Assembly (NCBI GenBank): GCA_017828975.1
Contig: JAGAJN010000011.1
Coordinates: forward strand, 41,601-105,600
Reading direction: 5' to 3'
Source: Oscillospiraceae bacterium
GTDB lineage: Bacteria > Bacillota > Clostridia > Oscillospirales > Ruminococcaceae
Length of the DNA: 64,000 bases
Under the pieces are notes generated by a model. It had not been told where the DNA came from. It saw nothing but the letters and a program-made list of their open reading frames with translations, and ran no database searches. Position numbers and translations under genes: made by a program. This document shows, in pieces, positions 3,605 through 61,315 of the stretch. Position 1 is the first letter of the stretch. Every line of letters starts with the position of its first letter.

Positions 3605-5023
3605 ATGAACATTCTTTACGCATCAAGTGAGGCACTCCCCTTTGCAGCTTCGGGCGGACTTGCCGATGTTGCAGGTTCACTTCCCGCAGCAGTCTGCAAG
3701 GCAGGTCATGATTGCCGAGTTGTTATGCCCCTTTACAAGAGCATCAAGCCCGAGCTGAGAGAAAAGCTCACCTTCGTTACCAACTTCACCGTTGACGTAA
3801 GCTGGAGAAAGCAGTACTGCGGTATCTTCAAGGGCGAAGCTAACGGCGTTACCTACTATCTGCTGGATAACGAGTATTATTTCGGCAGAGATGGCCTTTA
3901 CGGCTTCTATGACGACTGCGAGAGATTTGTATTCTTCTCCAGAGCTATCCTCGAAATGCTCAGACATATCGACTTCAAGCCCCAGGTCATCAACTGCAAC
4001 GACTGGCAGACAGCTCTCGTTCCCGTTTATTACGAGGTATTCTACCGCCACCAGTACGGCTACGACAATATCAAGACCGTTTTCACTATCCACAACATTC
4101 AGTATCAGGGAAAATACGGCATGGAGGTACTCAACGAGGTAATCGGTATTCCTATGTACCATTCTAAGATACTTGTTTACGACGGCTGCATCAACCTGAT
4201 GAAGGGTGCTATCGAAACCGCCGACAAGATCACCACCGTTTCCCCCAGCTATGCGTGGGAAATTCTCGACCCGTGGTATTCTCACGGTCTGGACAGAGCG
4301 CTGGCAAACAAGCAGTATAAGCTCTGCGGCTTCCTGAACGGTATCGACGTTGACCTGTACAATCCCGAGAAGGACCCCATCATTACAAAGAATTTCTCGG
4401 CAAAAAATCACAAGGGCAAGGCAGAGTGCAAGAAGGCGCTGCTTGCCGAGTGCAATCTCCAAGAGGGCGACGAGCCTGTTATCGGTATCGTTACGAGATT
4501 TGTTTCTCACAAGGGTATCGACCTTATCAAGTATGTTTTTGAGGATATTCTCAAGCTTGGATATAAATTTGTTATCCTCGGCTCAGGCGAGAAGATCTAT
4601 GAGGACTTCTTCCGTGAGATGGCTTGGCGTCACCCCGATAAGGTTTACGCTTATATCGGATTTAACTCCGAGCTGGCAAGACGTATCTACTCTGCCGTTG
4701 ATATGTTCCTCATGCCTTCTCAGAGTGAGCCCTGCGGACTTGCGCAGATGATCTCCCTGAGATACGGCACACTGCCTATCGTCCGTGAAACAGGCGGTCT
4801 GAGAGATAGTATCAAGGACGCAGGCTCCGAGGGCGGAAACGGCTTCACCTTCAAGACCTACAACGCTCACGATATGCTGGACGCCTGCCGCCGTGCAAAG
4901 GACTATTATTGGAGCAAGGACGCATGGAGCAAGCTTGTTACCCACGCTATGAAGTGTGATTTCAGCTGGGCAACCTCTGCCGAGCTTTATATGGGACTTT
5001 ACAGAGAGCTTTGCGGCGAATAA
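3605..5023 (+). CDS. glgA: Glycogen synthase (ADP-glucose)
   Basis: GT5 glycogen synthase, 472 residues, which extends alpha-1,4-glucan chains from ADP-glucose. It shows the N-terminal MNILYASSEALPFAASGGLADV loop, HNIQYQG, NGIDVDLYNPEKD, and the C-terminal SEPCGLAQMISLRYGTLP with ETGGL, the catalytic GT-B motif. The usual Lys of the KxGGL ADP-glucose motif is Ser here (ASGGL), a point worth noting although other clostridial sequences vary at this site. Last gene of the glgBCDA operon, followed by a hairpin terminator. Confidence 0.96.
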   Translation: MNILYASSEALPFAASGGLADVAGSLPAAVCKAGHDCRVVMPLYKSIKPELREKLTFVTNFTVDVSWRKQYCGIFKGEANGVTYYLLDNEYYFGRDGLYGFYDDCERFVFFSRAILEMLRHIDFKPQVINCNDWQTALVPVYYEVFYRHQYGYDNIKTVFTIHNIQYQGKYGMEVLNEVIGIPMYHSKILVYDGCINLMKGAIETADKITTVSPSYAWEILDPWYSHGLDRALANKQYKLCGFLNGIDVDLYNPEKDPIITKNFSAKNHKGKAECKKALLAECNLQEGDEPVIGIVTRFVSHKGIDLIKYVFEDILKLGYKFVILGSGEKIYEDFFREMAWRHPDKVYAYIGFNSELARRIYSAVDMFLMPSQSEPCGLAQMISLRYGTLPIVRETGGLRDSIKDAGSEGGNGFTFKTYNAHDMLDACRRAKDYYWSKDAWSKLVTHAMKCDFSWATSAELYMGLYRELCGE

Positions 5024-5049
5024 TTTCGCACATTTCAGAGAATTTATCA

Positions 5050-5092
5050 CCCGTTTTCAAAGGCATTTCCCTTTGGAAACGGGCGATTTTCA
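5050..5092 (+). terminator. Terminator after glgA
   Basis: Inverted repeat CCCGTTTTCAAAGG ... CCTTTGGAAACGGG with a short loop, starting about 27 bases after the glgA stop, followed by a short T-rich stretch (GATTTTC). It is a reasonable Rho-independent terminator, though the T-run is short. Confidence 0.65.
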
Positions 5093-5124
5093 CACAATTT
5101 TCAGTTTAAATTTTCGACAAAGCA

Positions 5125-5153
5125 TTGTATTTTTGGAAAATATGTGGTATACT
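5125..5153 (+). promoter_or_regulatory. Promoter for the acidic protein gene at 5319
   Basis: TTGTAT at 5125-5130 and TATACT at 5148-5153, with exactly 17 bases between them. The predicted start near 5160 would place the whole 103-bp hairpin element in the 5' untranslated region of the next gene. Confidence 0.55.
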
Positions 5154-5187
5154 ATACTCAAACCAACGTATAACGTTGAAAAACAGT

Positions 5188-5290
5188 ATACTAATTTCCT
5201 ATCATAAAGTTGACAAAAAATCCGTGCAAAAGCTTGCGTATATGGGTTTTGTGCGGATTTTTTGTCTATACTTTGATTAGAAATTAGTAT
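5188..5290 (+). repeat. 103-bp hairpin element, copy 1
   Basis: A single long imperfect palindrome. The ends are ATACTAATTTC and GAAATTAGTAT, a perfect 11-bp pairing. An inner stem of about 20 bp (GACAAAAAATCCG...CGGATTTTTTGTC, with two G-U pairs) carries a tip CAAAAGCTTGCG...GGGTTTTG. A second copy of the same length lies at 42443-42545. It shares the ends and the tip, while its arms have different sequence that is still self-complementary. The element lies between a promoter and the ribosome site of the gene at 5319. It may be a structured RNA, a MITE-like mobile hairpin or an attenuator. Confidence 0.75.
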
Positions 5291-5318
5291 TAAACCAACA
5301 CAAAGGAGAATGATGTAA

Positions 5319-5627
5319 ATGAAGAACGGATTTGGTCTGGCAGTTCTGGCGCTGGTTTCCGCCGCTGCTGGTGCTGCTGTTGCAATGTTTGCAATGAAGA
5401 AGCAGGAAGAGCTTGAGCAGTTCGACTACGATTTTGACGATGACGACGAGATCTATTTCGACGATGACGACGAAGAATGCTGCTGCGGCTGTGAGGAATG
5501 CGGCGAAGAAGCTGCCGAGGACGAGGCAGATGCAGATGTTGAAAAGGAGCTTGACGCTATCGACGACGAAGTTGAGGACGTTGACACGGCAAATGAAGTT
5601 CCCAAGCCCGAAAAAGGCGATTTCTAA
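5319..5627 (+). CDS. Small membrane-anchored acidic protein with Cys cluster
   Basis: Not a family I recognise. The 102-residue protein has one N-terminal hydrophobic segment (about residues 5-26, rich in Ala and Val), a short basic step, and then a very acidic tail with runs of Asp (FDDDDEIYFDDDDE). A cluster CCCGCEEC at about residues 51-58 is a possible metal-binding patch. The start is set by AAAGGAG eight bases upstream of the ATG. It is monocistronic, with its own promoter and a strong terminator, and faces the metal ATPase operon tail to tail. A link to metal binding is inference only. Confidence 0.8.
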   Translation: MKNGFGLAVLALVSAAAGAAVAMFAMKKQEELEQFDYDFDDDDEIYFDDDDEECCCGCEECGEEAAEDEADADVEKELDAIDDEVEDVDTANEVPKPEKGDF

Positions 5628-5649
5628 GCAATTTTCTTTATAATGACTT

Positions 5650-5687
5650 CGGCGCACCCTGCAAATCGCAAGGTGCGCCGTTTTTTT
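5650..5687 (+). terminator. Terminator after the acidic protein gene
   Basis: Stem CGGCGCACCCTGC / GCAAGGTGCGCCG (one mismatch) with a five-base loop, then seven T. It lies between converging genes and could act on both strands. Confidence 0.9.
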
Positions 5688-7789
5688 CAGCGGTTTGGTT
5701 TATATCTTCCCGCCCGCATAGCGTTCAAAACTGCCAGCATGGAAACGCCCACATCGGCAAAAACCGCCGCCCACATATTTGCGATACTGAGCGCCGCAAG
5801 GATAAGCACCGCCAGCTTTACCGCAAGAGCAAAGATGATATTCTGCTTAACTATCCGCCCCGTTTTTGCGGAAATGTCCATTGCATGGGCTATCTTCATG
5901 GGGTCGTCGTCCATGATAACAGCGTCTGCGGCTTCAATGGCAGCGTCCGAACCTATGCCGCCCATGGCAAAGCCCGCATCTGCCGCCATAAGCACGGGAG
6001 CGTCGTTGATACCGTCCCCCGCAAAGATAACACCCTTTGCGTCCTTTTGAAGCTCTTCAAGAATAGATGCCTTTTGGTCGGGCATAAGTCCGCTGAAAAC
6101 CTTGTCAATGCCCGCCTTTTCGCCGATCTCACGGGCAGCGGCTTCACGGTCGCCCGTAAGCATAACGGTTTTCATACCAAGCTGCTTCAGACGCTTCACT
6201 GCCTCCGCCGAACGTGGCTTTATCCTGTCGGAAATGAGAATGTGACCGAGATATTTGCCGTCCTCCGAAAGGTGAATGACAGTCCCCGCCTTCTCGGGAT
6301 TTTCGCAGGGAACGCCGAATTTGTCCATCAGCCGCTTGTTTCCCGCAAGGACGGTTTTCCCGTCAATATCCGCCTTCACGCCCATTCCCGAAAGCTCCTC
6401 GGAGGAGATCTCGGCGGAAAAAATGTCCCCGAATTTCTCCTCAGCCTTACGCTTTACCGACATAGCAGCGGGGTGCGTGGAGTAACGCTCAGCCTTTGCG
6501 CAAAGAGTGAGTATCCTGTCGGCATTTTCGGCGGGGGAAATTTCCGTTACCTCGAAAACGCCCTCGGTGAGTGTTCCCGTCTTGTCGAAAACCACCGTGT
6601 CAGCCTTGCAAAGCGCATCAATAACGCTGCCTCCCTTTATAAGGATACCATTCTTTGACGCTCCCCCGATACCGCCGAAATAGGACAGCGGCACAGAAAT
6701 TACCAGCGCACAGGGGCAGGAAACCACAAGAAATGACAGCGCAGGATAAAGCCGCTCGGCAGAAAATCCCCCGTCAATTATCATGGGAATGACCGCCAGC
6801 AGAACCGCAGCAGCCACTACGCAAGGGGTGTAAAATCTCGCAAACTTGGTGATGAAGCTTTCTGCGGGAGCCTTTCTTGCGCTGGCATTTTCTACCATTT
6901 CAAGTATCCTCGCAACGGTGGACTGCCCATATTCACGGGAAACCTCCAGCTCCATGACCGCAGACAGATTGATAACGCCGCTCATTACCTCCTCGCCCGT
7001 GCGGAATGTCCTGGGGACACTTTCGCCCGTCAGCGCAGATGTGTCGGCGGAACAATCGGCGGAGAGAAGCACGCCGTCCAGCGGAACACGCTCGCCGGGA
7101 GCAACAACTATAACATCGCCGACCCTGACATTTTCGGGAGAAACCCGCTGTATCTTACCTTCGGAATCCTTAACCGAAGCGCTGTCGGGACGCAGCTCCA
7201 TAAGCCCCGCAATGGATTTTCTCGACTTTTCAACGGCATAATCCTGGAAATATTCGCCTATCTGATACAAAAGCATGACCGCCGCACCCTCGGCATATTC
7301 CCCGATAGCAAACGCTCCCACCGAAGCCAGCGCCATCAGAAAATGCTCGTCCAGCATCTTACCTCGAAACAGGTTTTTGAACGCCAGCAAAAGCACGTCA
7401 TAGCCCGCCGTGAGATACGCCGCCAGCAGCAGTATCAGCGCAGCGACCTCATTCCAGATAATATGCTCTGCGATAATTCCGCCCGCCGCCAGCACTGCCG
7501 ACAAAATTATGCGGACTATCATCACCCTGCCGTCCGTTTCTTCCTCGTCGGACTCCTTTTTCTCGGGATATTTGCCGAATTCCGTCACCACAACATCGGG
7601 CTCAATCTCCGAAACTATTTTTTTGATACGCTCAAAAAGCTCCTCGGACACTTCGCCCTTCGCCCGAACAGTAAGCTTTTTCGCCATAAAATTCATCTCC
7701 GCTCCCTCGACCTCGGGGAGCTTTTCCACCTCACAGCGTATCTTCTCGGCGCAGTGGGCGCAGTCAAGACCGTTTAGCAGCAGTTCCAT
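5687..7789 (-). CDS. cadA: Heavy-metal translocating P1B-type ATPase (Zn/Cd/Pb type)
   Basis: Membrane pump expelling divalent soft metals at the cost of ATP. The 700-residue protein has an N-terminal metal-binding domain with GLDCAHC (Cys10, Cys13), transmembrane helices from about residue 90, TGES (254-257), SCPCAL with CPC at 358-360, the phosphorylation motif DKTGT (402-406), an HP locus (STHPAA), and GDGINDAP. The last helix reads ADVGVSMLAVLNAMR, with the Asp typical of Zn/Cd pumps. Last gene of an operon with the ArsR regulator and a methyltransferase, starting 11 bases after the methyltransferase stop. cadA versus zntA naming cannot be settled by reading. Confidence 0.93.
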   Translation of the reverse strand: MELLLNGLDCAHCAEKIRCEVEKLPEVEGAEMNFMAKKLTVRAKGEVSEELFERIKKIVSEIEPDVVVTEFGKYPEKKESDEEETDGRVMIVRIILSAVLAAGGIIAEHIIWNEVAALILLLAAYLTAGYDVLLLAFKNLFRGKMLDEHFLMALASVGAFAIGEYAEGAAVMLLYQIGEYFQDYAVEKSRKSIAGLMELRPDSASVKDSEGKIQRVSPENVRVGDVIVVAPGERVPLDGVLLSADCSADTSALTGESVPRTFRTGEEVMSGVINLSAVMELEVSREYGQSTVARILEMVENASARKAPAESFITKFARFYTPCVVAAAVLLAVIPMIIDGGFSAERLYPALSFLVVSCPCALVISVPLSYFGGIGGASKNGILIKGGSVIDALCKADTVVFDKTGTLTEGVFEVTEISPAENADRILTLCAKAERYSTHPAAMSVKRKAEEKFGDIFSAEISSEELSGMGVKADIDGKTVLAGNKRLMDKFGVPCENPEKAGTVIHLSEDGKYLGHILISDRIKPRSAEAVKRLKQLGMKTVMLTGDREAAAREIGEKAGIDKVFSGLMPDQKASILEELQKDAKGVIFAGDGINDAPVLMAADAGFAMGGIGSDAAIEAADAVIMDDDPMKIAHAMDISAKTGRIVKQNIIFALAVKLAVLILAALSIANMWAAVFADVGVSMLAVLNAMRAGRYKPNR

Positions 7790-42442: not shown

Positions 42443-42545
42443 ATACTAAACGCCATTAGAATTATGGAGAAGAAATCGGCACAAAAGCTTGCGCCTATGT
42501 GGTTTTGTGCCGAGAGATTCCCATAATTCAATGAGCGCTTAGTAT
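42443..42545 (+). repeat. 103-bp hairpin element, copy 2
   Basis: Same length as copy 1 (5188-5290). The ends ATACTAA / TTAGTAT and the tip CACAAAAGCTTGCG...GTGGTTTTGTG are shared. The arms between them (for example GAATTATGG / CCATAATTC, and TCGGCACAAAA / TTTTGTGCCGA) differ from copy 1 but pair with each other. It lies between the divergent kinase and DAGK-like genes. Confidence 0.75.
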
Positions 42546-60944: not shown

Positions 60945-61024
60945 CAGATCACCTCCTTCCAAGAACAACAGTTCTCAATGTTCGTTCACAAAATGTTAAA
61001 TAAAATTAATTTTCGCAAATTCTA

Positions 61025-61053
61025 TTGACATTTCGGAACATTTGTGCTACAAT
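61025..61053 (+). promoter_or_regulatory. Antisense promoter inside the switch region
   Basis: TTGACA at 61025-61030, 17-base spacer containing TTTCGGAA (an operator half-site), TACAAT at 61048-61053. It points right, into the 3' end of the minus-strand gene at 61067-61315, and could make an antisense transcript that continues to the repressor gene. Confidence 0.65.
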
Positions 61054-61066
61054 AGATCACAAGGAA

Positions 61067-61315
61067 TTATCGCTTACCAATTGAGATCACCGAACCCGAT
61101 CCGGCTGAATCAAGTACCTCCATCATAGCGCCGCAAACCTCGTCGGAACGCACTTCGCCAACCATCAGCTTGTGCAGATAGGACGAGTCAAGGTAGCGGT
61201 TGGGGAGCAGCTTTTTCGTTTCGGAGATGAGCCACAGCTGTGTCTTGTTAAGCTCAACAAGACGGTGCTTTACACATACTCCGAATTCGCAAAGGGCTTT
61301 TTTCTCGATCTTCAT
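61067..61315 (-). CDS. Small phage HTH protein, Cro-like
   Basis: 82 residues with an XRE-like helix pattern (CVKHRLVELNKTQLWLISETKKLL...YLDSSYLHKLMVGEVRS). ATG at 61315 follows AGGAGG. It is transcribed leftward from the promoter at 61463-61491, opposite to the repressor, like a Cro or early regulator that leads into the structural genes. Confidence 0.78.
   Translation of the reverse strand: MKIEKKALCEFGVCVKHRLVELNKTQLWLISETKKLLPNRYLDSSYLHKLMVGEVRSDEVCGAMMEVLDSAGSGSVISIGKR

Follow-up and report, generated by a model that had tools for sequence, protein, structure and literature searches.

The RUP elements of Streptococcus pneumoniae, which are found there together with IS630-Spn1, are described in the accounts consulted as AT-rich stem-loops of 107 bp present in about 110 copies, with end repeats like those of the resident IS630-family insertion sequence (IS) and insertion at TA (PMC2229807, PMC3049150). 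Correia/NEMIS and ERIC are presented in part of the same literature (PMC2229807) as short MITEs of intergenic regions that have end repeats and TA termini and whose transcripts form long stem-loops. ISY100, from the IS630/Tc1/mariner group, inserts at TA with duplication of the TA and, according to the section of the report consulted, 30 bp per end are enough in vitro (PMC2170065).

Here we describe a family of hairpins represented twice in the window, a stretch of 64,000 nucleotides from an Oscillospiraceae bacterium. The family is a known kind of mobile element, a bacterial MITE, carrying a conserved tip that is unexplained. We estimate at about 90% the probability that these hairpins are non-autonomous MITEs, mobilised in trans by a transposase of the IS630 family (Tc1/mariner type). 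Such a transposase would recognise the ATACTAA-type end repeats, cut the unit out and paste it at a TA, which would be duplicated in the process.

Direct reading of both copies confirmed the two 103-bp hairpins of the preliminary description, their positions, their ends and the blocks shared at the tip. Copy 1 (5188..5290) and copy 2 (42443..42545), both on the + strand, start with ATACTAA and finish with TTAGTAT; in each, element positions 40-51 read CAAAAGCTTGCG, and GGTTTTGTG lies 3′ of the loop. Among the matches of this genome, they are the only two within the window. Copy 1, which was oriented by its tip and delimited by folding and by DNA and model searches, has arms of type A (see below). 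Its left arm (5188..5232, +) resembles IS right ends and its right arm (5246..5290, +) resembles IS left ends read inward, as judged from folding and from comparison of arms with IS ends. Between them is the conserved tip CTTGCGTATATGG (5233..5245, +), recognised from the sequence and by comparison between copies. Sequence and flank pattern also place a TA, without strand, on each side: that on the left (5187..5188) lends its A to the 103-bp unit as base 1, while that on the right (5291..5292) is the other half of the presumed target duplication. Copy 2, identified by sequence, folding and searches, is of arm type B, has the tip CTTGCGCCTATGTGG (42488..42502, +; read from the sequence) and is preceded by T and followed by TT instead of TA.

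The upstream neighbour of copy 1 is glgA, encoding glycogen synthase (3605..5023, +), and its downstream neighbour is a small ORF of 102 aa (5319..5627, +) without NCBIfam match. The end of copy 1 and the start codon of this ORF are 28 bp apart, with an AAAGGAG, recognised by eye, beside the element; copy 1 therefore probably lies within the 5′ untranslated region, and it may change expression of the small gene at 5319. Promoter-like matches over and ahead of copy 1 number 4 against 1.3 expected, a count that carries no proof. The neighbours of copy 2 are divergent and resemble hybrid histidine kinase and lipid kinase genes, with kinase matches below their respective cut-offs.

Many further copies exist. 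DNA searches of the same genome returned 56 matches for copy 1 (E<=10) and 46 for copy 2 (E<=1), both strands counted, and the tip pattern AAGCTTGCGN{3,10}GGTTTT occurs exactly 20 times, compared with 0 for the reversed control. The search with a covariance model that the preliminary description proposed was carried out with R2, a structured model built from 14 type A and type B copies; it gave 117 matches in this genome (both strands, E<=1), which merge into about 62 places, 4 of them odd-sized or degenerate, and it also found copies in related genomes. Lengths at the 62 or so places are mostly 97-112 bp, with ends ATACTAA/TTAGTAT, and an ORF of at least 80 aa overlaps the element in 4 of 92 loci. 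Like bacterial MITEs in general, these elements are short, non-coding and repeated, with terminal inverted repeats. Partial matches within the genome proved to be copies that are truncated or of odd size; for 2 of 7 such stretches, no recognised transposase appears among the ORFs listed.

In 44 aligned copies, the ATACTAA and TTAGTAT ends and a CTTGCGTWTATGG-like tip are nearly constant. The arms fall into three main types, A (TTTCCTATC), B (ACACCATT) and C (GAACCAATT), with a few hybrids (L018, L007 and L077). Most types have two extra nucleotides in the left arm near position 17 and in the right arm near position 22, and this asymmetry of the arms is concordant with the orientation of the tip in 146 of 148 scorable elements (179 in total, 31 unscorable); the two discordant elements are L075, which has a small arm deletion, and L106. 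The hybrid L077 (1501-1602; G000:C3:6276-6377) combines two left-type arms that belong to different subfamilies, which would fit recombination at the tip between two inverted copies, or it may reflect an assembly join. Other hairpins were observed as well. One of 161 bp (L127, about 1005-1166; G000:C31:5005-5165) has the same ATACTAATTCC ends and a different core, and is perhaps another MITE type of the same IS. A short inverted-repeat element at L064:1646-1745, with relatives in L075 and L125, is bounded by ATAGTAAACG...CGTTTACTAT and can form a strong hairpin internally; a G001 copy of this type carries L088 as a nested insertion.

Orthologous loci with and without the element, a comparison suggested at the outset, indicate that the hairpins insert. 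From glgA orthologues of named public genomes, 80 of 409 loci were kept. One of these, L131, comes from a bin of an uncultured Ruminococcus sp. whose GlgA is 99% identical; it has the same intergenic region without the element, and is thus an empty site for copy 1: the joined flanks of copy 1 match it at 95% over 300 columns with two gap openings, one beside the junction, and a few bases differ at the exact site. With this junction, six were counted, rows with overlapping loci or other repeats being left out. Of the other five, two align to element-free sequence without a gap: L088, against L064 (99% over 106), and L086, which is itself inserted in a type B copy (92% over 89). L064 (94.5% over 73) and L286 of G001 (89% over 295) align to element-free sequence with one gap each, the site of L286 being equivalent to window positions 60955-61249, and L004 (85% over 165) does so with two gaps. 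At L088 the net insertion is 104 nt, that is 102 nt plus TA. The family therefore displays insertion polymorphism with target duplication, as bacterial MITEs do, although the duplication of TA is inferred, because the unit's own ends are A and T. Among 43 copies, T precedes the element in 39 and TA follows it in 36, and of 160 scorable elements, 141 have a flank offset that matches the orientation of the tip. Back-to-back copies separated by a single T occur as two pairs (L005, L012), and nested copies are also present. The sole model match among the 80 glgA loci, L161 (32 bits), was rejected as a copy, as it is without ATACTAA ends; it may be an unrelated hairpin. At L094 (G001:C33) the left flank matches G000:C13 and the right flank G000:C7 with the element at the breakpoint, which may mark a point of rearrangement between two species or an assembly join.

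A candidate partner is present in the same genome. L229 contains an IS roughly 1.13 kb long that has two ORFs: the first, of 168 aa, carries winged-HTH domains, and the second, of 160 aa, carries DDE_3 and matches NF033545, IS630 family transposase, at 130 bits against a cut-off of 100. The ends of this IS (ATACTAATCTTC... and ATACTAAACACC...) are of the ATACTAA...TTAGTAT type, and its flanks, T and TA, show the same one-base offset as those of the MITEs. Judging from these sequences, an IS of the L229 type, or a relative of it, would be the source of mobilisation. Its transposase is split over two frames (L229:950-1989), and an A-run near the overlap is perhaps a frameshift site.

The likeness between IS ends and MITE arms was measured with 184 distinct arms from 149 of the 179 elements and with 200 shuffles that kept ATACTAA. 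Each of the seven IS ends, from G000, G001 and G003, resembles a MITE arm more closely than at least 199 of 200 shuffles do (shuffles reaching the seven real scores: 0, 1, 0, 0, 0, 1 and 0 of 200), the best being the left end of G003_L233 (29.5 against a shuffle maximum of 22.0). The MITEs thus have end repeats in common with the IS630-family IS of L229, L231, L228, L233 and L235. By mean score, 3 of 4 IS right ends favour left arms and all 3 IS left ends favour right arms, so that a left-right swap holds in 6 of the 7 ends, the exception being the right end of G001_L235. The left arm of the MITE would then correspond to the right end of the IS and the right arm to its left end, and this correspondence would explain inverted-repeat arms with fixed 2-nt offsets. 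In a sample of 197 genomes of the family, DDE_3 was sought in 12 of the 18 that bear the element and in 11 of the 179 that do not; it was found in 4 of the 12 (3 above cut-off) against 0 of the 11. Presence of DDE_3 alone is a weak argument, and the case rests on the common ends. Since DDE_3 was not found in 8 of the 12 element-bearing genomes, the helper there would be lost, unassembled, unrecognised or different, and this is the main gap of the IS630 model.

The hairpin might instead be moved by a Y1/HUH transposase, as are REP elements and elements derived from IS200/IS605. The present elements, as long palindromes with a conserved tip, resemble the substrates of such enzymes. Yet Y1_Tnp is missing from 7 of the 12 element-bearing genomes, including that of the window (G000), and occurs in 5 of the 11 element-free ones, a distribution that largely refutes it as the mobiliser, and TA flanks with IS630-like ends suit a DDE enzyme better. 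We have rejected this reading, which we find scarcely credible. The IS630-family IS with the same ends, in turn, sustains the "mobile hairpin element" that was one of the two suggestions of the preliminary description, together with the empty site, the TA flanks, the back-to-back and nested copies and the occurrence of identical copies: four G003 copies are identical to one another, and certain copies recur without change in both G000 and G001.

The other suggestion was an undescribed structured RNA. With 10 bases of flank on each side, copy 1 folds at -45.0 kcal/mol on the + strand and -36.4 kcal/mol on the - strand, and copy 2 at -47.0 and -48.6 kcal/mol respectively (z-scores -8.98 and -6.46 for copy 1, -7.66 and -9.70 for copy 2); in each of the four folds, 0 of 200 shuffles were as good. 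Covariation was assessed in an alignment, A2, of 14 copies of two arm types (A and B), the structure being taken from one of the 14. Pairs changed on both sides number 10 of 40 (shuffle mean 5.8; 1 of 500 shuffles as high) and cells with a double-sided change 36 (shuffle mean 10.5; 0 of 500 as high), while further pair types are about as numerous in this alignment as in shuffles (26 against 23.6; 59 of 500 shuffles). Pairing is found in 88.6% of cells against 35.6-51.0% in six slid versions, a figure that favours the structure because this was derived from one of the aligned sequences. Folding far beyond shuffles and covariation thus bear out the observation that the arms are unlike between the two copies and pair almost fully within each. 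Absence of both further copies and covariation, which had been named as counting against the proposal, was not what we found, given the 62 or so places and the signal in A2. RNAalifold returned zero pairs on 44 mixed copies (A1), probably because gaps fall differently between arm types; the model R1 was therefore sequence-only and was set aside. A third alignment, A3 (32 loci, model-fitted), mixed both strands and was left out of the counts.

Selection on structure had been deduced from pairing that persists as the sequence changes. The covariation itself is real in A2, but the deduction is weakened in the outer 32 bp or so, where both arms are transposon-end-like. As end repeats for one transposase, both could follow the lineage of the IS, and their likeness to IS ends accounts for part of the paired changes that separate the subfamilies. 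Clear covariation of hairpin arms need not signal a structured RNA, since mobile DNA with inverted repeats yields the same signal.

If the + strand were transcribed and the hairpin with its tip were a regulatory or processing element under RNA selection, the covariation in A2 and the conserved tip would both be expected. The + strand is indeed the better folded in 80 of 95 representatives (mean difference 5.0 kcal/mol), in 69 of 95 with the loop neutralised (2.5 kcal/mol) and in 86 of 95 when the apical hairpin is folded by itself (1.9 kcal/mol), all three counts being inflated by related copies. Selection on one RNA strand would also produce an excess of G-T over A-C mismatches on it. The two are, however, equally frequent (140 against 145 in 98 representatives; 79 against 85 for the inner stem, p 0.70), a balance that on its own would tell against such selection, whereas the fold energies favour the + strand. 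The inner-stem tallies and the energies were obtained without the hybrids L007, L018 and L077, and element-wise comparisons left out 4 of 183 elements: L272, whose stretch is too short, and the odd-sized or degenerate L127, L128 and L129. In addition, the whole window contains no Rfam family at gathering score, the copy at 5188 is missing from the same site of a relative, and neither gene context nor orientation is constant in the 92 loci with enough flank: the settings are tandem in 44, convergent in 28 and divergent in 20, with the element strand divided 25 to 19 in the tandem settings, all approximate because genes were chosen greedily from ORFs of at least 80 aa. Despite the better folding of the + strand, a dedicated RNA is therefore not supported and we regard it as very unlikely. 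A MITE family accounts for intergenic hairpins of a kind that might otherwise be taken for new RNAs.

The same loci bear on the idea that the hairpins are co-opted transcription terminators, repeated by chance. Type A arms have A-runs and T-runs around the inner stem on both strands, and the nearest gene boundary is a 3′ end in 52 of the 92 loci. It is, however, a 5′ end in the other 40; a terminator scan of 5000-5700 found 0, with one on the - strand inside copy 2; and terminators would leave the ends, the TA flanks and the empty sites unexplained, so that this account appears highly improbable.

The element occurs in both genomes of the genus that were examined, and R2 matches were obtained in 18 of the 197 sampled genomes of the family, representing 15 of 126 genera. 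In a sample of the class, 2 of 391 genomes match, both from the same family, under strict filters that lose weak matches. Plasmid records gave zero matches, while a phage collection gave 18 records. The 10 listed are contigs labelled "Bacteriophage sp.", without annotation and derived from human faeces, whose copies show about 77-79% identity; they could reflect carriage by phages or contamination with bacterial DNA. Between genera, identity is 0.826 for the outer seven bases, 0.767 for the tip (computed on those 92 of the 98 representatives whose tip is 13 nt long), 0.523 and 0.534 for the arms and 0.413 for the far inner stem. The CTTGnnnTATGG tip is thus kept at 77% against 52-53% for the arms, the tip figure being biased upward because the search model includes the tip and because its position was assigned by pattern.

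This conservation of the tip and the copy-specific pairing of the inner stem both go beyond what the MITE model alone explains. Watson-Crick pairing of the inner stem is 0.692 and falls to a mean of 0.584 (maximum 0.609 in 200 trials) when right arms are swapped between genomes, a control in which the hybrids were kept; pairing near the tip is therefore copy-specific, with a moderate difference. For both features we lean towards constraint on a DNA palindrome or replication-linked correction of the arms, over a dedicated RNA. Template switching can keep arms complementary (PMC8794818, as consulted in part), and spacer inversions are said to accompany arm correction of this type (PMC8604942, likewise in part). 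Frequent spacer inversion is not seen here, tip orientation and arm asymmetry agreeing in all but two of the 148 scorable elements. The folded hairpin, as ssDNA or RNA, could itself be the recognised substrate, with a transposase or host factor reading structure and tip beyond the linear ends, because the CTTGnnnTATGG tip, the orientation and the arm offsets are fixed across genera while both arms change together; we judge this doubtful.

The IS630-MITE model gives Ruminococcus-like bacteria a MITE family with a likely IS630 partner, and the conserved tip becomes a concrete, testable puzzle. The terms IS630, Clostrid- and Ruminococc- are absent from the main text of a 2024 review of prokaryotic MITEs, and the open-access literature yielded no paper combining Ruminococcus, IS630 and MITE. 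Among known systems, ISY100 is an autonomous IS of a cyanobacterium and offers a parallel for mechanism only. Correia/NEMIS and ERIC, as far as the source consulted describes them, are like the present hairpins in being small intergenic MITEs with end repeats and TA termini; they occur in other hosts, and effects of RNase III or RNase E are reported for them. The closest known element is RUP, likened here by description alone from the portions consulted: size, copy number, stem-loop, IS630-like ends and TA sites are comparable. The host differs, and arm types that are paired yet different, together with a tip conserved across 15 genera, are features of the present family that are absent from the description of RUP consulted.
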